DNA of 64,000 nt. Origin: Halopelagius longus. Lineage in GTDB: Archaea > Halobacteriota > Halobacteria > Halobacteriales > Haloferacaceae. The notes beneath the pieces are model-generated. The model worked only from the letters and a program-made list of their open reading frames with translations, was not told where the DNA came from and did not search any database. Positions 35,285 to 55,263 of this stretch are shown here, piece by piece (position 1 is the stretch's first letter; every line of letters starts with the position of its first letter). The stretch lies in the NCBI RefSeq assembly GCF_900100875.1, contig NZ_FNKQ01000001.1, positions 806,001 to 870,000 of the forward strand. The letters run 5' to 3'. The position numbers were made by a program, and so were the translations under genes.

Positions 35285-36187
35285 TCAGTCGTCGGCCGCG
35301 TCGGCGTCGCCCGCGGCGGTTCGGTCTCGGAGGTACGCCTCGATTCGGTCGTCGGGGATCCGTTCGAGGAGTCGGTCGTACCCGCGTTCGGCCCGGCGGT
35401 CGATTTCGTCGTCGGGGACGTACGCGTCCAACCTGCGGTCCACCTCCGCCTCGCGGAGTGCGGCCAGTTCGTCGCCGTCGAGGGGGTGGTCGTCGGGCAC
35501 TCGGTCGTCGAACCACTCGCGCCACCGGTCGCGGGACGCCCACTCTTCTGCGCGTTCGGCCTCGGGGCGGACCCAGTCCCAGTAGTCGGCGAGTTCGTCG
35601 GGATACCCCGCCTCCCGGCGCGCGTCCGCGATGAGATTTCGGGCGACGCGCGCGCCGTGACCCGCCGAGAGTATCGCTTGGGCGTTCATCTCGCCGGCGG
35701 GGGCGGCGACGTACAGGCCGTCTATCGGCGTCCGCCCGTCGGCGTCGGCGTAGTCGGGGTCGAACTGCTCCCGCGTCTCGCCGAGGTGTTCCGTCGTCGT
35801 CGTCATCCGGTCTTCGTCCATCGGACGGAGGTACGACCCGTCGTACCGCGCCGCGGCGACGACCCGGTCTGCGGTGACGGTCCTGCCCTCCTGCGTCTCG
35901 ACGACGAACGCCCCGTCCTCGCGGGTCACCGACTCCACCATCTCCGCGAGGCGTTCGCACCCGGCCTCCGCGAGGTGGGCGCGCATCAACTCGTAGAACG
36001 CGTCTATCTCGATGCCGGCGGGGAAGCCGAGGTAGTTCTCCAGGTACGCACACCGACGGAGCGAGGAGTTCCCCCGGTCGAAGACGACGGTGTCGAGGCC
36101 GTACCGAGCAGTGAACACCCCCGCGGAACAACCCGCGGGCCCGCCGCCGACCACGACCACCTCGTAGTGCCGTCGTTCGTCGCCCAT
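35285..36187 (-). CDS. Thioredoxin-reductase-like flavoprotein lacking the NAD(P)H domain
   Basis: 300 residues. FAD binding: YEVVVVGGGPAGCSAGVFTARYG, then LENYLGFPAGI as in thioredoxin reductase, and the closing DGLYVAAPAGEMNAQAILSAGHGARVA. The CxxC redox pair and the central NADPH-binding domain of true thioredoxin reductases are not visible; the protein runs straight from one FAD half to the other. The last ~100 residues are a highly charged helical extension. An 18-base palindrome sits two bases before the ATG, so it is probably metal-regulated. What supplies electrons is unknown. Confidence 0.82.
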   Translation of the reverse strand: MGDERRHYEVVVVGGGPAGCSAGVFTARYGLDTVVFDRGNSSLRRCAYLENYLGFPAGIEIDAFYELMRAHLAEAGCERLAEMVESVTREDGAFVVETQEGRTVTADRVVAAARYDGSYLRPMDEDRMTTTTEHLGETREQFDPDYADADGRTPIDGLYVAAPAGEMNAQAILSAGHGARVARNLIADARREAGYPDELADYWDWVRPEAERAEEWASRDRWREWFDDRVPDDHPLDGDELAALREAEVDRRLDAYVPDDEIDRRAERGYDRLLERIPDDRIEAYLRDRTAAGDADAADD

Positions 36188-36189
36188 AG

Positions 36190-36207
36190 TTTTCGGCTAG
36201 CCTAAAA
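36190..36207. promoter_or_regulatory. Iron-box-like operator 1 (flavoprotein)
   Basis: TTTTCGGCTAGCCTAAAA on the plus strand; six of seven arm positions match TTTTAGG-N4-CCTAAAA. It lies only two bases upstream of the flavoprotein ATG at 36187, covering the expected transcription start, where a bound repressor would block initiation. Confidence 0.65.
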
Positions 36208-36250
36208 CATCATAGTAGTTTCGGGAAGCGCCGCCGTCGCGGCGATGACG

Positions 36251-36262
36251 TACTTATTTATT
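36251..36262 (+). promoter_or_regulatory. TATA region of the leader ORF and DtxR-linked hypothetical
   Basis: TACTTATTTATT is an AT-rich element about 30 bases before the ATG at 36287 and directly abuts operator 2. Confidence 0.55.
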
Positions 36263-36278
36263 TTAGGCCATCCTAAAA
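36261..36278. promoter_or_regulatory. Iron-box-like operator 2 (perfect palindrome)
   Basis: TTTTAGGCCATCCTAAAA has perfect seven-base arms separated by four bases. It lies between the TATA element and the ATG at 36287. This is the best copy in the window and resembles the TTAGG/CCTAA core bound by DtxR/IdeR-type repressors. Confidence 0.75.
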
Positions 36279-36286
36279 CGAGCACG

Positions 36287-36355
36287 ATGAACTCGGAGGT
36301 GGCGCGACTGCGACCGACTGCCGGGAGCGAGACCGGACCCTCGGAGGGTCGGTGA
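36287..36355 (+). CDS. 22-residue leader ORF before the conserved hypothetical
   Basis: Encodes MNSEVARLRPTAGSETGPSE plus two residues and ends in TGA at 36353-36355. Its ATG is at the spacing expected for a leaderless transcript from the TATA element at 36251. The stop overlaps the next start (GTG 36352 or ATG 36355), implying translational coupling. The peptide itself is not recognised; it may serve only to deliver ribosomes. Confidence 0.5.
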   Translation: MNSEVARLRPTAGSETGPSEGR

Positions 36356-37275
36356 TGGTGGGTCGGTCGCTGCGCGAGATACGGGACCGCATCGACGAAC
36401 TCGCCGACGAGGACGGGCGGTACGGCATCGTCTGCGGTCGGACGGGCGAGCGAATCGTCCCCGTCGCGGACGCCCGGTTCGAGGACCGCGCGGCGGCGGC
36501 GGAGGCGGCGAAGTTGGCCGAGGAGTACCGCGCGGCCCTCAGGCGGTACGACCCGCGGGTGATGGTCCACGACCCCATCGTCCGCGACGCGTCCGCGTCG
36601 TCCCCCGCGGGCGCGGACCGGGCGACGCCGGGAGAACCGACGGCGGCGGGCGCCATCCCATCGGAACTCGTCGAGTTCTGCCACGACGTCGCCGCCGCCG
36701 TCTTCGAGGCCCTCTCGGTGCACGGTCACCGCACCGTCGAGGACGCCGTGATGGACTCGTACTTCGACGCCGCCGAAACCGTCGCAGACAGGGACGAACT
36801 CTGCGTCGCCCTGTTGCGGTGCATGGCGCGCGACATCGACGACCACCTCTCGCCGACGGAACAGGCCCGCGTGTTAGAAACCGCGGCGGCGACGCTCTCG
36901 TCGGTGGACGCCTCCGACCGACCGGTGGAGGCCGCACTCGCGCGCCTCCGGGCGAAATCGGTCGTGGACGCCTACGAGGTGGAGACGATAGCGGCGGGCG
37001 ACGCGGAAGGTTCGGTTCGCCGCATCACCCTCGACGGCTACAGACTCCGCGACGACCGCCGCGCCGTCCCGACGCTTCCGTTGGTGGTCGAACTCCTCAG
37101 GGGGGCCGACGGGCGACGTCCGTCGGGCGGGCGGGGCGAGTTCGGCGACGGCTACCCCTCTCTGTCCGTCTCCGAGGGGGAAGGACCCGCGTCGTCCCGG
37201 CGAGTGACGGTGACGGTGCGGAGTCGCGACCGGCCGCGCGGATTGTCGTCCGTCCGCGTCGGCGACTCGGCGTGA
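36355..37275 (+). CDS. Haloarchaeal conserved hypothetical with iron-box promoter
   Basis: 306 residues. Two parts are visible. Residues 1-70 (SLREIRDRIDELADEDGRYGIVCGRTGERIVPV, broken up by variable positions, then AAEAAKLAEEYRAALRRYDPR) resemble haloarchaeal DUF7551/DUF7552-type domains as I remember them. Residues ~105-200 are helical (ELVEFCHDVAAAVFEALSV, DELCVALLRCMARDIDDHL). A Gly/Arg-rich linker and short strand end the protein. No catalytic motif is seen. Start is ATG 36355, overlapping the leader ORF stop. Its operator suggests a role in iron handling. Confidence 0.75.
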   Translation: MVGRSLREIRDRIDELADEDGRYGIVCGRTGERIVPVADARFEDRAAAAEAAKLAEEYRAALRRYDPRVMVHDPIVRDASASSPAGADRATPGEPTAAGAIPSELVEFCHDVAAAVFEALSVHGHRTVEDAVMDSYFDAAETVADRDELCVALLRCMARDIDDHLSPTEQARVLETAAATLSSVDASDRPVEAALARLRAKSVVDAYEVETIAAGDAEGSVRRITLDGYRLRDDRRAVPTLPLVVELLRGADGRRPSGGRGEFGDGYPSLSVSEGEGPASSRRVTVTVRSRDRPRGLSSVRVGDSA

Positions 37276-37367
37276 CCCCGCCGCGCCGACCGACCCGCGA
37301 ACGCGTCCGTGAAGCTGATACGTCCGCACCCTGTAACGTCGTGGCACGCGAGACCGAACCGCTTTTA

Positions 37368-37385
37368 TTTTAGGTCTGCCTAAAC
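37368..37385. promoter_or_regulatory. Iron-box-like operator 3 (regulator operon)
   Basis: TTTTAGGTCTGCCTAAAC keeps both half-sites except the last base. It overlaps the TATA-like cttttatttt (37362-37371) and ends nine bases before the ATG at 37394. It would let the regulator encoded downstream control its own operon. Confidence 0.7.
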
Positions 37386-37393
37386 AACTCTCA

Positions 37394-37561
37394 ATGGCGA
37401 CGCCTCCACTCTCCCAACCGGAGGACGAGCGGTCGAGTGAATCGGAAGAGAACACCGAAATAGGGGTTTGCGAAGGCTCTCCCGGCAAGTACGTCTTCAT
37501 CGAGTCCGGGAACTCCGACGGGTGGATAGGGACCGATACGGTCGTGGAACCGCGGGAGTAA
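37394..37561 (+). CDS. 55-residue conserved small protein (DUF7331-like)
   Basis: Encodes MATPPLSQPEDERSSESEEN followed by GVCEGSPGKYVFIESGNSDG and WIGTDTVVEPRE. The acidic disordered start and the compact end with a VFIE strand and WI-TDT-V motif resemble the small haloarchaeal DUF7331 proteins. It is the first gene after operator 3 and precedes the DtxR-type regulator by 26 bases. One cysteine is present. A role as a small partner of the regulator or iron-limited protein is inference. Confidence 0.7.
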   Translation: MATPPLSQPEDERSSESEENTEIGVCEGSPGKYVFIESGNSDGWIGTDTVVEPRE

Positions 37562-37587
37562 CTCGGCGGGTCCGCTCCCACGCCGAG

Positions 37588-37962
37588 ATGGTCCCCGACG
37601 CGCGGTATCTCCTCGCTATCCGTACCCTCAGACCGAACGAGACGACGCCCGTCTCGACCGGTTCGATAGCCGACGAACTGGGTCGCTCGCCCGCCGCGGC
37701 GACTGAGATGGCCGAACGACTGAACGAGCGCGGGTTGGTCGAGCACGAACCGTACGAGGGGGTCGTCCTCACCGAAGAAGGAGAGTCCCGCGCGGACCGA
37801 CTCGCCCGGACGTACGAGATTCTCTGTCGGTTCTGTCGGGACGTCCTCCGCATCGACGAGTACGAGGCGGAGGCGTCGGCGCTCGTCGGAACGGTGAGTC
37901 CGGACGTCGCAGAACGGTTGGCCGAAGTGCTTCTCAGCGACGAAGCCGACCCGTCACCGTGA
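37588..37962 (+). CDS. DtxR/SirR-family metal-dependent transcriptional regulator
   Basis: 124 residues from ATG 37588. The winged helix-turn-helix reads VSTGSIADELGRSPAAATEMAERLNERGLVEHEPYEGVVLTEEG, which is the DtxR pattern, followed by the dimerisation helix region RTYEILCRFCRDVLRIDEYEAEASAL. It is shorter than bacterial DtxR; no C-terminal SH3/FeoA domain is present. Fe(II)- or Mn(II)-dependent binding to palindromes such as those at 36-38 kb is the expected role. Cysteines in LCRFC may join the metal sites. It is likely autoregulated through operator 3. Confidence 0.87.
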   Translation: MVPDARYLLAIRTLRPNETTPVSTGSIADELGRSPAAATEMAERLNERGLVEHEPYEGVVLTEEGESRADRLARTYEILCRFCRDVLRIDEYEAEASALVGTVSPDVAERLAEVLLSDEADPSP

Positions 37963-38000
37963 CGGGCCGGGGTGGACCGCCGAGTTCCGTGGCAGGTCGC

Positions 38001-38531
38001 TTACTGCTTGAGGGAGTCGTCGGCGAGGTAGTGCTCGATGACGTGCGCGTGTTCCTCTAACTCCTCGAGCTGTTCGCGCAGCATGTGGGCCGTCGTGTGG
38101 TCGCCCAGACCCTCCGCGAGGGTGATGTGCTCGCGGTAGCTCTCGATGATGTCGCCGTACATCTCCAGGTCGTTCTCCATCGAGGTGCGGATGTCGTAGA
38201 CGTCCTCGTCTTCGGGTTCGACCGTCGCCGCCTCCGAGAGGGTGGACATGCTCGCGTGGGGGACGCCACCGAGCGTCTGGAGGCGTTCGGCTATCTCGTC
38301 GGCCGCCTCCTCGACGTCCTCGTACGCCTCCTGGAAGAACCGGTGGAGGCCGAGGTGTTCGGCACCCTCGACGTTCCAGTGGTGCTTGTGGAGCTGGTGG
38401 TAGAGGACGTACGCGTCCGCGAGGTCGGTGTTCAGCGCGCCGATAATCTGTTCGGCCTTCTCCCGTTCGAGGCGAACGGGGTTGTCTTCGATGCTTCCTG
38501 CTTTCCGGGTGGCGGTCTCTTGAGAACTCAT
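38001..38531 (-). CDS. dps: Dps-family ferritin-like protein
   Basis: 176 residues. The Dps ferroxidase residues are present: LYHQLHKHHWNVEGAEHLGLHRFFQEAYEDVEEAADEIAERL in pieces (His in HKHHWNV, Asp/Glu in the following helix). The rest is a four-helix bundle ending EEHAHVIEHYLADDSLKQ. Haloarchaeal DpsA forms a dodecamer that oxidises and stores iron and protects DNA. ATG 38531 is chosen over 38561. An operator-like site lies 52 bases upstream. It converges with the regulator gene. Confidence 0.93.
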   Translation of the reverse strand: MSSQETATRKAGSIEDNPVRLEREKAEQIIGALNTDLADAYVLYHQLHKHHWNVEGAEHLGLHRFFQEAYEDVEEAADEIAERLQTLGGVPHASMSTLSEAATVEPEDEDVYDIRTSMENDLEMYGDIIESYREHITLAEGLGDHTTAHMLREQLEELEEHAHVIEHYLADDSLKQ

Positions 38532-38582
38532 CACTACATCGTAGGCGCCCGGAGTACTCAAACCTTACGCTTGCCCGACATG

Positions 38583-38600
38583 TTTTCGCCTCACCTAAAA
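38583..38600. promoter_or_regulatory. Iron-box-like operator 4 (dps, degenerate)
   Basis: TTTTCGCCTCACCTAAAA keeps the CCTAAAA half-site and the TTTT of the other arm but differs inside it. It lies 52 bases upstream of dps, upstream of the probable TATA (AAGGTTTGA-like at about 38558-38567), where a bound factor could activate rather than repress. Confidence 0.45.
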
Positions 38601-38694: not shown

Positions 38695-39519
38695 TCACTC
38701 GGTGGCGACGGCCTCGATTCGGTCGTTCGCGTCGGCGGCCTCCCCGTCGAAATCGGCCACCGCGTCGCGGAACGCCGTCTCGAAACTGCCGGGGCCGGCG
38801 TAGTCGCCGTACTCGCCGGCGGCGGCCGCCTCGCCCGCGAGACCGAACGCCGCCGTTCCGGCGAGTGCGGCCTCTACGTCGTCGTCTATCGCGCCGGCGA
38901 ACACGGCGAGGGTGACGCCGAGCATGCATCCGGTGCCGACGACGGTGGAGAGCATCTCGTGGCCCACCTCCACCCGGTACGCCGCCTCGGCGGTGGCGAC
39001 GATGTCGGTTTCGCCGGAGGCGACGACGACGGCCCCCGTCTCGTCCGCGAGTGCCGTCGCACTCGCGGCGATGTCGGCGTACTCCCCGACCGATTCGACG
39101 CCGCGGACTTCCGCGTCCTCGCCCGCGAGGGCGGATATCTCGCCGTAGTTGCCGTTGACGACGGCGGGGTCGAGTTCGGTGACGAGTCGGTCCGCCACCC
39201 TGTCGCGCGTCGGCGTCGCGCCGACGCCCACCGGGTCTACGACGACCGGGACGCCGTGTTCCTTCGCCGCCTCGCCCGCCGTCATCATCGTCTCCTCGCC
39301 GTCTTCGCTCACGGTGCCCATGTTCAGGAGGCACCCGTCCGCGATGGCGACCATGTCGCCCACCTCCCGTTCGTCGTCGGACATGACGGGGAGGCCGCCC
39401 CAGTGGAGGGTCACGTTGGCGACTTCGTTGACCGTCACCACGTTCGTGAGGCAGTTGACCAGCGGTTGTTCCTCCCGGACCGTCGAGAGGGCGTCCGCGA
39501 GGGTCACGTCGGAGGTCAC
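38695..39519 (-). CDS. thiM: Hydroxyethylthiazole kinase
   Basis: 274 residues from GTG 39519. Ribokinase-like fold: PLVNCLTNVVTVNEVANVTL, GGLPVMSDDEREV, VVVDPVGVGATPTR and the catalytic-site VGTGCMLGVTLAVFAG (normally GTGCML). It phosphorylates the thiazole moiety of thiamine for salvage. The GTG overlaps the thiE stop by four bases (GTGA, 39516-39519), so ThiE and ThiM are co-translated. Confidence 0.93.
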   Translation of the reverse strand: MTSDVTLADALSTVREEQPLVNCLTNVVTVNEVANVTLHWGGLPVMSDDEREVGDMVAIADGCLLNMGTVSEDGEETMMTAGEAAKEHGVPVVVDPVGVGATPTRDRVADRLVTELDPAVVNGNYGEISALAGEDAEVRGVESVGEYADIAASATALADETGAVVVASGETDIVATAEAAYRVEVGHEMLSTVVGTGCMLGVTLAVFAGAIDDDVEAALAGTAAFGLAGEAAAAGEYGDYAGPGSFETAFRDAVADFDGEAADANDRIEAVATE

Positions 39520-40160
39520 AGACTCGCCCTCCCTTCGCGGACCGCAGTCGCGAGACGTCGCGTCGCCTCCTCGGGGTCGTCGGACCCGGCGATGGCCGAG
39601 ATGACCGCCACGCCGTCCGCCCCGGCGGCGGCCACGTCCGCGGCGTTCTCCGGGGTGATGCCGCCGATGCCGACGACGGGCACGTCCACCGCCTCGACTA
39701 TCTCGGCGACCGTCTCGGTGCCGATTTCGGCCTCGTCGTCGTCCACGTCCTTCGAGGACGTCGAGAAGACCGCGCCGACGCCGAGGTAGTCCGCGCCCGC
39801 CGCCTCGGCATCCCGCGCGGCCTCGACGGTCGAGACGGACCGGCCGACGACGGCGTCGGGACCCAACTGTTCGCGGGCCACCGAGACGGGCAGGTCGTCG
39901 TCCCCGAGGTGGACGCCGTCGGCGTCGGCGGCGACGGCGATGTCCACCCGGTCGTTGACGACGAAGGTGACGCCCGCGTCGGCGGTCATCTGTCGGAGTT
40001 CCCGGGCGAGTTCGTATCGCTCGCGGGCGGTCGCGTGTTTCTCGCGGAGTTGAACGGCGTCGACTCCGCCGGCGATGGCCGCCCGAACGACCTCCACGGT
40101 CGAACGGTCGCCCGAGAGGTTCGTCTGCGTGACGAGATAGGTGTCCACCTGTGTATTCAT
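39516..40160 (-). CDS. thiE: Thiamine-phosphate synthase
   Basis: 214 residues, a TIM barrel: YLVTQTNLSGDRSTVEVV, VDAVQLREKHATARE, FVVNDRVDIAVAADADGVHLGDDDLP, YLGVGAVFSTSSKD and VVGIGGITPENAADV. It couples the pyrimidine and thiazole phosphates to make thiamine monophosphate. ATG 40160 is the first gene of the thiEM operon. I looked upstream for a TPP riboswitch core (CUGAGA and related motifs) and saw none. Confidence 0.95.
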   Translation of the reverse strand: MNTQVDTYLVTQTNLSGDRSTVEVVRAAIAGGVDAVQLREKHATARERYELARELRQMTADAGVTFVVNDRVDIAVAADADGVHLGDDDLPVSVAREQLGPDAVVGRSVSTVEAARDAEAAGADYLGVGAVFSTSSKDVDDDEAEIGTETVAEIVEAVDVPVVGIGGITPENAADVAAAGADGVAVISAIAGSDDPEEATRRLATAVREGRASL

Positions 40161-55142: not shown

Positions 55143-55263
55143 CTCGGATGCTCCGGGCGAGTCTTCGCTTCGCGAACGCATGAATATCACACCTTCGAGG
55201 GGCGGGGGCGACGGCACCGGTCGGTTACGAGTGTTTTTTGAGGAGTACGTCAAAACAGCCGAC

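Follow-up and report, generated by a model that had tools for sequence, protein, structure and literature searches.

Symmetric and asymmetric operators at an idr-dps locus of Halopelagius longus support a DtxR-family iron regulon in haloarchaea

Palindromes and genes at the idr-dps locus

In the present study, a group of palindromic operators around idr, a gene for a DtxR-family regulator, and the iron-storage gene dps was analyzed in a 64,000-nucleotide stretch of DNA from Halopelagius longus. This whole stretch, referred to as the window (G000:C1:806001-870000), is part of a 3.87-Mb haloarchaeal genome, and protein comparisons place its relatives in Haloferacaceae and allied families. A first-pass annotation of the same DNA had described four copies of an 18-base palindrome, and all four were found exactly as written, at 36190-36207, 36261-36278, 37368-37385 and 38583-38600. 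When up to three mismatches were allowed, TTTTAGGN4CCTAAAA matched the window five times, compared with 0.13 matches expected, and none of 100 shuffles reached five; the fifth match, at 55237, carries three mismatches and looks like a chance occurrence.

The four units that had been paired with these sites, namely a flavoprotein gene, a hypothetical gene, the regulator unit and dps, do each have a site upstream, judged from the distances to the ATG or the open reading frame (ORF). On the minus strand, a thioredoxin-reductase-like FAD/NAD(P) flavoprotein of 300 aa (35285-36187) is preceded by the symmetric operator TTTTAGGCTAGCCGAAAA (36190-36207, minus-strand reading), which lies 2 nt before the ATG and 3' of a core promoter resembling a transcription factor B (TFB) recognition element (BRE) with a TATA box, CCGAAACTACTATGATG (36208-36224, minus strand). 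This promoter abuts the operator and scores 10.9, on a scale on which 99.9% of the window 20-mers score below -1.0, and the operator occupies the position of a repressor site. On the plus strand, the perfect symmetric operator TTTTAGGCCATCCTAAAA (36261-36278) abuts the TATA-like element TTATTTAT, placed by eye, ahead of a 22-codon leader ORF (36287-36355, read from the sequence) and the hypothetical gene, which encodes a DUF7552 and DUF7551 protein of unknown function (36355-37275). The leader ORF overlaps the start of the DUF7551 gene via TGATG, and translational coupling of the two is possible. The third symmetric operator, TTTTAGGTCTGCCTAAAC (37368-37385, plus strand), belongs to a transcription unit composed of a 55-aa ORF (37394-37561) and idr (37588-37962), both on the plus strand; in relatives, it lies approximately 22 nt before the start of the 55-aa ORF. 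The product of idr is an Idr-type DtxR-family regulator of 124 aa.

The fourth site differs from the others. The gene dps (38001-38531, minus strand) encodes an iron-storage ferritin-like protein, the DpsA haloarchaeal equivalog, and 51 nt upstream of it lies the asymmetric operator TTTTAGGTGAGGCGAAAA (TTTAGG-N4-RCGAAA; 38583-38600, minus strand), a proposed activator site 5' of the core promoter. The TATA-like TTTGAG of dps (38557-38562, minus strand) starts 37 nt from the operator start, the register that TTATAA occupies in relatives. Next to dps, thiM-like (hydroxyethylthiazole kinase) and thiE-like genes, assigned by eye, are found on the minus strand at 38695-40160, where this kind of operator was not seen.

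This neighbourhood is conserved. Among 61 named haloarchaeal idr loci, dps was present in 37, the 55-aa ORF in 28, a siderophore-binding protein in 23, an amphi-Trp-like protein in 19, the flavoprotein in 17 and DUF7551 in 11, and operators were nearly always located near these neighbours of idr. The 55-aa protein is related to DUF7331, with the core VCxxxPGxxxFxExxNxDGWIxxD, and an orthologue scored 26.9 bits against that family, just below the 27-bit cut-off. Many haloarchaea have kept this protein of unknown function, together with its own operator, between the idr and dps genes, and it should be strongly iron-regulated.

Genome-wide sites and their register with the core promoter

A scan of the whole genome, as the first-pass annotation had suggested, revealed 10 exact matches to TTTAGG-N4-CCTAAA, compared with none for the reversed control and approximately 0.02 expected from base composition. 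All ten lie at genes for siderophore synthesis, at siderophore-type ATP-binding cassette (ABC) uptake genes or in the window cluster, without exception. Two are within the window cluster, two at a FecCD permease-ATPase-binding-protein cluster, two at an operon for diaminobutyrate transaminase, diaminobutyrate decarboxylase and IucA-IucC siderophore synthesis, and the others at three more genes for Peripla_BP_2 binding proteins, of which the one on C5 has two sites and is followed by a permease and an ATPase. This gene-class specificity and the empty reversed control show that the motif is not scattered at random. Across the order, the symmetric motif was observed in 187 of 195 genomes, typically in 3-20 copies, and the control gave approximately 0.1 per genome. 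Because the ten exact sites all lie at the cluster, the siderophore operon or ABC uptake genes, the earlier claim of an iron regulon is strongly supported, and the symmetric palindromes appear to mark a haloarchaeal regulon of the DtxR-family type for which iron would be the signal. On the other side of the paired operators, and divergent from the siderophore operon, lies the gene for a large histidine kinase whose sensor domains are repeated, recognized by eye (L033:8126-11815; C2 near 951000).

The spacing of such close pairs is strict, with 64 of the 82 distinct pairs exactly 36 bp apart and 76 within 34-36 bp. Sandwiched between the paired operators is a directional core promoter composed of BRE (YCGRAR) and TATA (TTWT). 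Counted from the downstream TAGG, C occupies -19 in 96%, G -18 in 95% and T -10 in 96%. The pairs are anchored at their downstream site, and the difference between 34 and 36 bp falls between the upstream site and the BRE. The single flavoprotein site at 36190 occupies this downstream position, and a position weight matrix of the promoter sandwich gave it a good placement, but not 36261 or 37368. At these two sites the TATA, assigned by eye, abuts the operator approximately 3-4 bp closer, and they were treated as a second single-site layout; at the 55-aa ORF, a single site approximately 22 nt before the ATG with an abutting TATA was observed in 20 distinct loci. A protein bound at the symmetric sites should, from their positions, block TATA-binding protein (TBP) and TFB or RNA polymerase. 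The sites do overlap AT-rich promoter DNA, but the view that they are chance occurrences or a generic AT-rich promoter element is hardly conceivable, as it is already contradicted by the near-zero reversed controls, the gene-class specificity, the exact 36-bp register and the occurrence in 187 genomes.

DtxR-family proteins and the asymmetric operator

Four proteins encoded in the genome match the DtxR family well, namely the Idr of the window, a protein of 146 aa whose gene at C2:956797-957234 (L033:13795-14235) adjoins sufD/sufB and has a ferritin-like gene nearby, and two SirR-type proteins with a FeoA domain. The 146-aa protein is called TroR (HVO_0863 type) because TroR is listed as HVO_0863, and Idr as HVO_0538, in PMC11349517, and because a published primer flanking HVO_0863 (PMC6801745) matches, with two mismatches, the suf-linked loci of two genomes, one of which belongs to the Haloferax clade. 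The same primer had no match within four mismatches in the idr loci, and the second primer of the pair was not found in the suf-linked loci that the first had matched. In a phylogenetic tree, Idr, TroR and SirR formed three clades with high group support, although the alignment had few columns and the window row a long branch.

Idr contains the N-terminal helix-turn-helix domain Fe_dep_repress (PF01325, 43.6 bits; cut-off 26) and the dimerisation domain Fe_dep_repr_C (PF02742, 28.0 bits; cut-off 27), and is thus a member of the DtxR/MntR family. Its AlphaFold model has a predicted local distance difference test score of 89 with DR2539, MntR, DtxR and IdeR as the best PDB matches, and the MntR/DtxR fold is predicted with confidence. 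The metal ligands of MntR (D8, H77, E99, E102 and H103) or their DtxR equivalents are not retained: among 80 Idr sequences, 78 have Y in place of H77 and 71 have G in place of H103, and E102 is replaced by A, V, T, S or C (mostly A or V). As the canonical ligands have been lost, Idr is unlikely to sense metal by the standard route. The SirR-type proteins keep the H, E and H ligands. In TroR, E102 is retained, an invariant Cys follows the H77 position, and the C-terminal part contains CxxC...C (28 of 28 sequences); in the protein encoded on C2, the conserved C-terminal CPDC...C and the Cys by the H77 position, with most canonical ligands lost, hint at an unusual sensor site. The recognition helix of Idr (SPAAATEM) is closer to that of TroR (SPASANEM) than to that of SirR (TPPTVTSM).

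The distribution of these proteins bears on which of them binds. Idr is fast-evolving and patchy across genomes, and almost every complete genome contains TroR, with 72-88% identity as the typical range, as does the window genome. Thirty near-complete genomes in which the DtxR-family matches are only TroR and SirR-type proteins hold 206 exact motifs, 6.9 per genome, so that the symmetric motif is independent of the protein encoded in the window; four f2-family genomes (58-78% complete) without a TroR-grade match hold none. The assignment of the sites to the embedded regulator, put forward with a caveat in the first-pass annotation, was not borne out, given this persistence, the lost ligands and TroR being the nearly universal DtxR protein. 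At dps alone it may hold, where the presence of the asymmetric site tracks Idr across genomes. Judged from these sequence comparisons, TroR is likely the main binder of the symmetric sites, and Idr is likely to be mainly a target or partner.

The dps site had been described as a weaker copy of the palindrome; its position was confirmed, but it is not a weak copy, matching instead the conserved asymmetric operator. TTTAGG-N4-RCGAAA was observed upstream of 41 of 46 idr-linked dps copies, always in one orientation, and the symmetric form in none of the 46, and the idea of a degraded symmetric site was dropped for this reason. For dps copies not linked to idr (L208-L237), TTTAGG-N4-RCGAAA was found in 1 of 30 and TTTWGG-N4-CCRAAA in 11 of 30. 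The TTTTGG-N4-CCAAAA or TTTAGG-N4-CCRAAA of approximately one third of these copies, at the same -70 position, suggests a second dps operator specificity. Genome-wide, TTTAGG-N4-RCGAAAA gave 36 matches in 35 of 195 genomes, compared with 6 for the control. Among 56 distinct asymmetric sites in the examined loci, most of which were fetched through idr, 47 precede dps and 9 a NifU-like iron-sulfur (Fe-S) gene (NifU domain), all in one orientation, and the same picture was obtained from 16 genome-wide matches (13 dps, 3 NifU-like). The assumption of a dps-specific site was abandoned once the NifU-like genes were found behind it, and one match at L262 (G185), whose GC-rich surroundings lack a TATA, was discounted as a chance occurrence.

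At dps, the operator lies 5' of BRE/TATA at a fixed distance, as in an upstream-activator layout. Among 54 distinct sites, the distance from the operator start to the start of TATA is mostly 37 nt, compared with 27-28 in the uptake pairs, which places the TATA of dps approximately 10 bp, about one helical turn, further away. In archaea, the binding sites of activators are usually located upstream of BRE/TATA (PMC5937170), and in actinobacteria, regulators of the IdeR/DtxR type combine repression of uptake with activation of storage (PMC10317159), so that the natural reading of the asymmetric site would be that dps and the NifU-like gene are activated from it. Of 30 genomes with a clear Idr (loci L038-L067), 20 have the asymmetric site, compared with 2 of 30 without Idr (Fisher 1.9e-6); because the species are related and the site is often linked to idr, this co-occurrence is suggestive rather than proof.

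Proposed regulation and comparison with known systems

Herein, we propose that, around the idr-dps node, TroR represses uptake at the symmetric sites and that TroR, Idr or both activate storage at the asymmetric site, a reading to which we assign a probability of about 0.72. It is offered as the best explanation of the sites, their positions, gene classes and conservation, the phyletic pattern and the ligand loss, from which the binder, the iron signal and the sign of regulation are predicted. The uptake-type units would comprise siderophore synthesis, siderophore ABC transporters, the flavoprotein, DUF7551 and the 55-aa ORF with idr, and would carry TTTAGG-N4-CCTAAA directly 3' of TATA and in many cases a further copy 36 bp upstream, so that BRE and TATA are enclosed. 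Iron-loaded TroR, whose gene lies elsewhere, beside suf genes, most likely binds these symmetric sites and would block TBP/TFB and RNA polymerase. At dps, and elsewhere also at the NifU-like Fe-S gene, the asymmetric operator would act from 5' of BRE/TATA, the typical position of archaeal activators, from which TroR, its ligand-less paralogue Idr or both most likely activate iron storage and use.

Several observations weigh against this proposal. SirR-type proteins are also present in the genomes without Idr and could bind the symmetric motif, TroR has itself lost most canonical ligands, and iron sensing by TroR reportedly rests on published genetics. The TATA of dps in the window (TTTGAG) is poor, many unlinked dps copies have other palindromes, so that the asymmetric site is not the sole dps arrangement, and some genomes with Idr lack this site.

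Other assignments of the binder were also considered. That the embedded 124-aa protein is the iron sensor and autoregulator of all four sites is improbable: it has the DtxR fold, is encoded between the sites, has a recognition helix more like that of TroR than that of SirR and co-occurs with the dps-type site, but the motif is kept in 30 genomes without Idr, the Y, A/V and G at the H77, E102 and H103 positions make canonical metal sensing unlikely, and Idr is fast-evolving and patchy. We give an equally low probability to binding of the symmetric motif by a SirR-type (FeoA-domain) regulator, which has kept its metal ligands and has two copies in the window genome and apparently also occurs in each of the 30 Idr-less genomes; its recognition helix is unlike those of TroR and Idr, no motif occurs in the four incomplete f2-family genomes that lack a TroR-grade match, and a work cited in PMC11349517 names TroR in its title as the primary iron regulator in Haloferax. 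For the asymmetric operator, a TroR-Idr heterodimer, in which TroR would recognize the TTTAGG half and Idr the RCGAAA half, is a tentative idea that we consider doubtful. The fixed asymmetry and orientation, the co-occurrence with Idr and the absence of metal ligands in Idr would all fit, but the co-occurrence test lacks independence, the asymmetric site is found in several f14-family genomes in which no Idr was detected, and weakening of a half-site to low affinity could also explain RCGAAA. A two-symbol operator code, in which a symmetric box in register around BRE/TATA turns uptake off and an asymmetric box, set one helical turn further from TATA and bound by the heterodimer of an iron-sensing TroR and a sensor-less Idr, turns on storage through dps and Fe-S assembly through the NifU-like gene, is unlikely as a whole.

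The proposal of TroR repression and storage activation turns a generic guess at a DtxR iron regulon into specific promoter rules that can be tested in archaea with good genetics, such as Haloferax. Operator position and symmetry relative to a eukaryote-like BRE/TATA would decide whether a bacterial-type site represses or activates, a role is offered for a DtxR paralogue without sensor residues, and the conserved 55-aa protein is flagged as a likely strongly iron-regulated one.

The TroR/Idr/SirR network of Haloferax volcanii contains the same three DtxR-family types, and the Haloferax-clade genome G126 has exactly three matches, whereas two SirR-type proteins are encoded in the window genome. 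In the 2024 study of Martinez Pastor and colleagues (cited in PMC11349517), TroR reportedly represses idr, and the idr promoter of the window carries an operator, as expected in that case. In Halobacterium salinarum, the DtxR paralogues Idr1, Idr2 and SirR are said, in the work of Schmid and colleagues (2011) and Martinez-Pastor and colleagues (2017), to act together on iron genes, some of which are repressed and others activated. The comparative genomics of archaeal DtxR operators reported by Leyn and Rodionov in 2015 probably includes the symmetric haloarchaeal motif. Literature searches for haloarchaeal TTAGG operators, which did not reach the 2024 and 2015 studies, gave nothing. No account of either the 36-bp sandwich or the asymmetric operator of dps and NifU-like genes turned up in the literature searched, which lacked the main TroR study, so that a prior description is possible.

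The TTAGG/CCTAA half-sites are shared with actinobacterial DtxR/IdeR, and IdeR covers the promoters of uptake genes to repress them and activates storage genes (PMC10317159). The 19-bp IdeR box TTAGGTTAGSCTAACCTAA (TTAGG-N9-CCTAA) has four CCTAA repeats with outer arms 9 bp apart (PMC10317159), whereas the haloarchaeal sites do not form such a box, their arms being 4 bp apart with a variable inner 4 bp, a spacing consistent with one dimer per box; the haloarchaeal pairs, unlike IdeR, are set 36 bp apart around BRE/TATA. The archaeal activators TFB-RF1 and EarA also have their site upstream of BRE/TATA (PMC5937170, PMC5512572), although the protein families are unrelated and activation at dps is predicted from the layout. 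Compared with these systems, the iron regulon itself is of a known kind, and the likely correction concerns its wiring, with TroR instead of the embedded Idr at the symmetric sites and with two promoter rules added.

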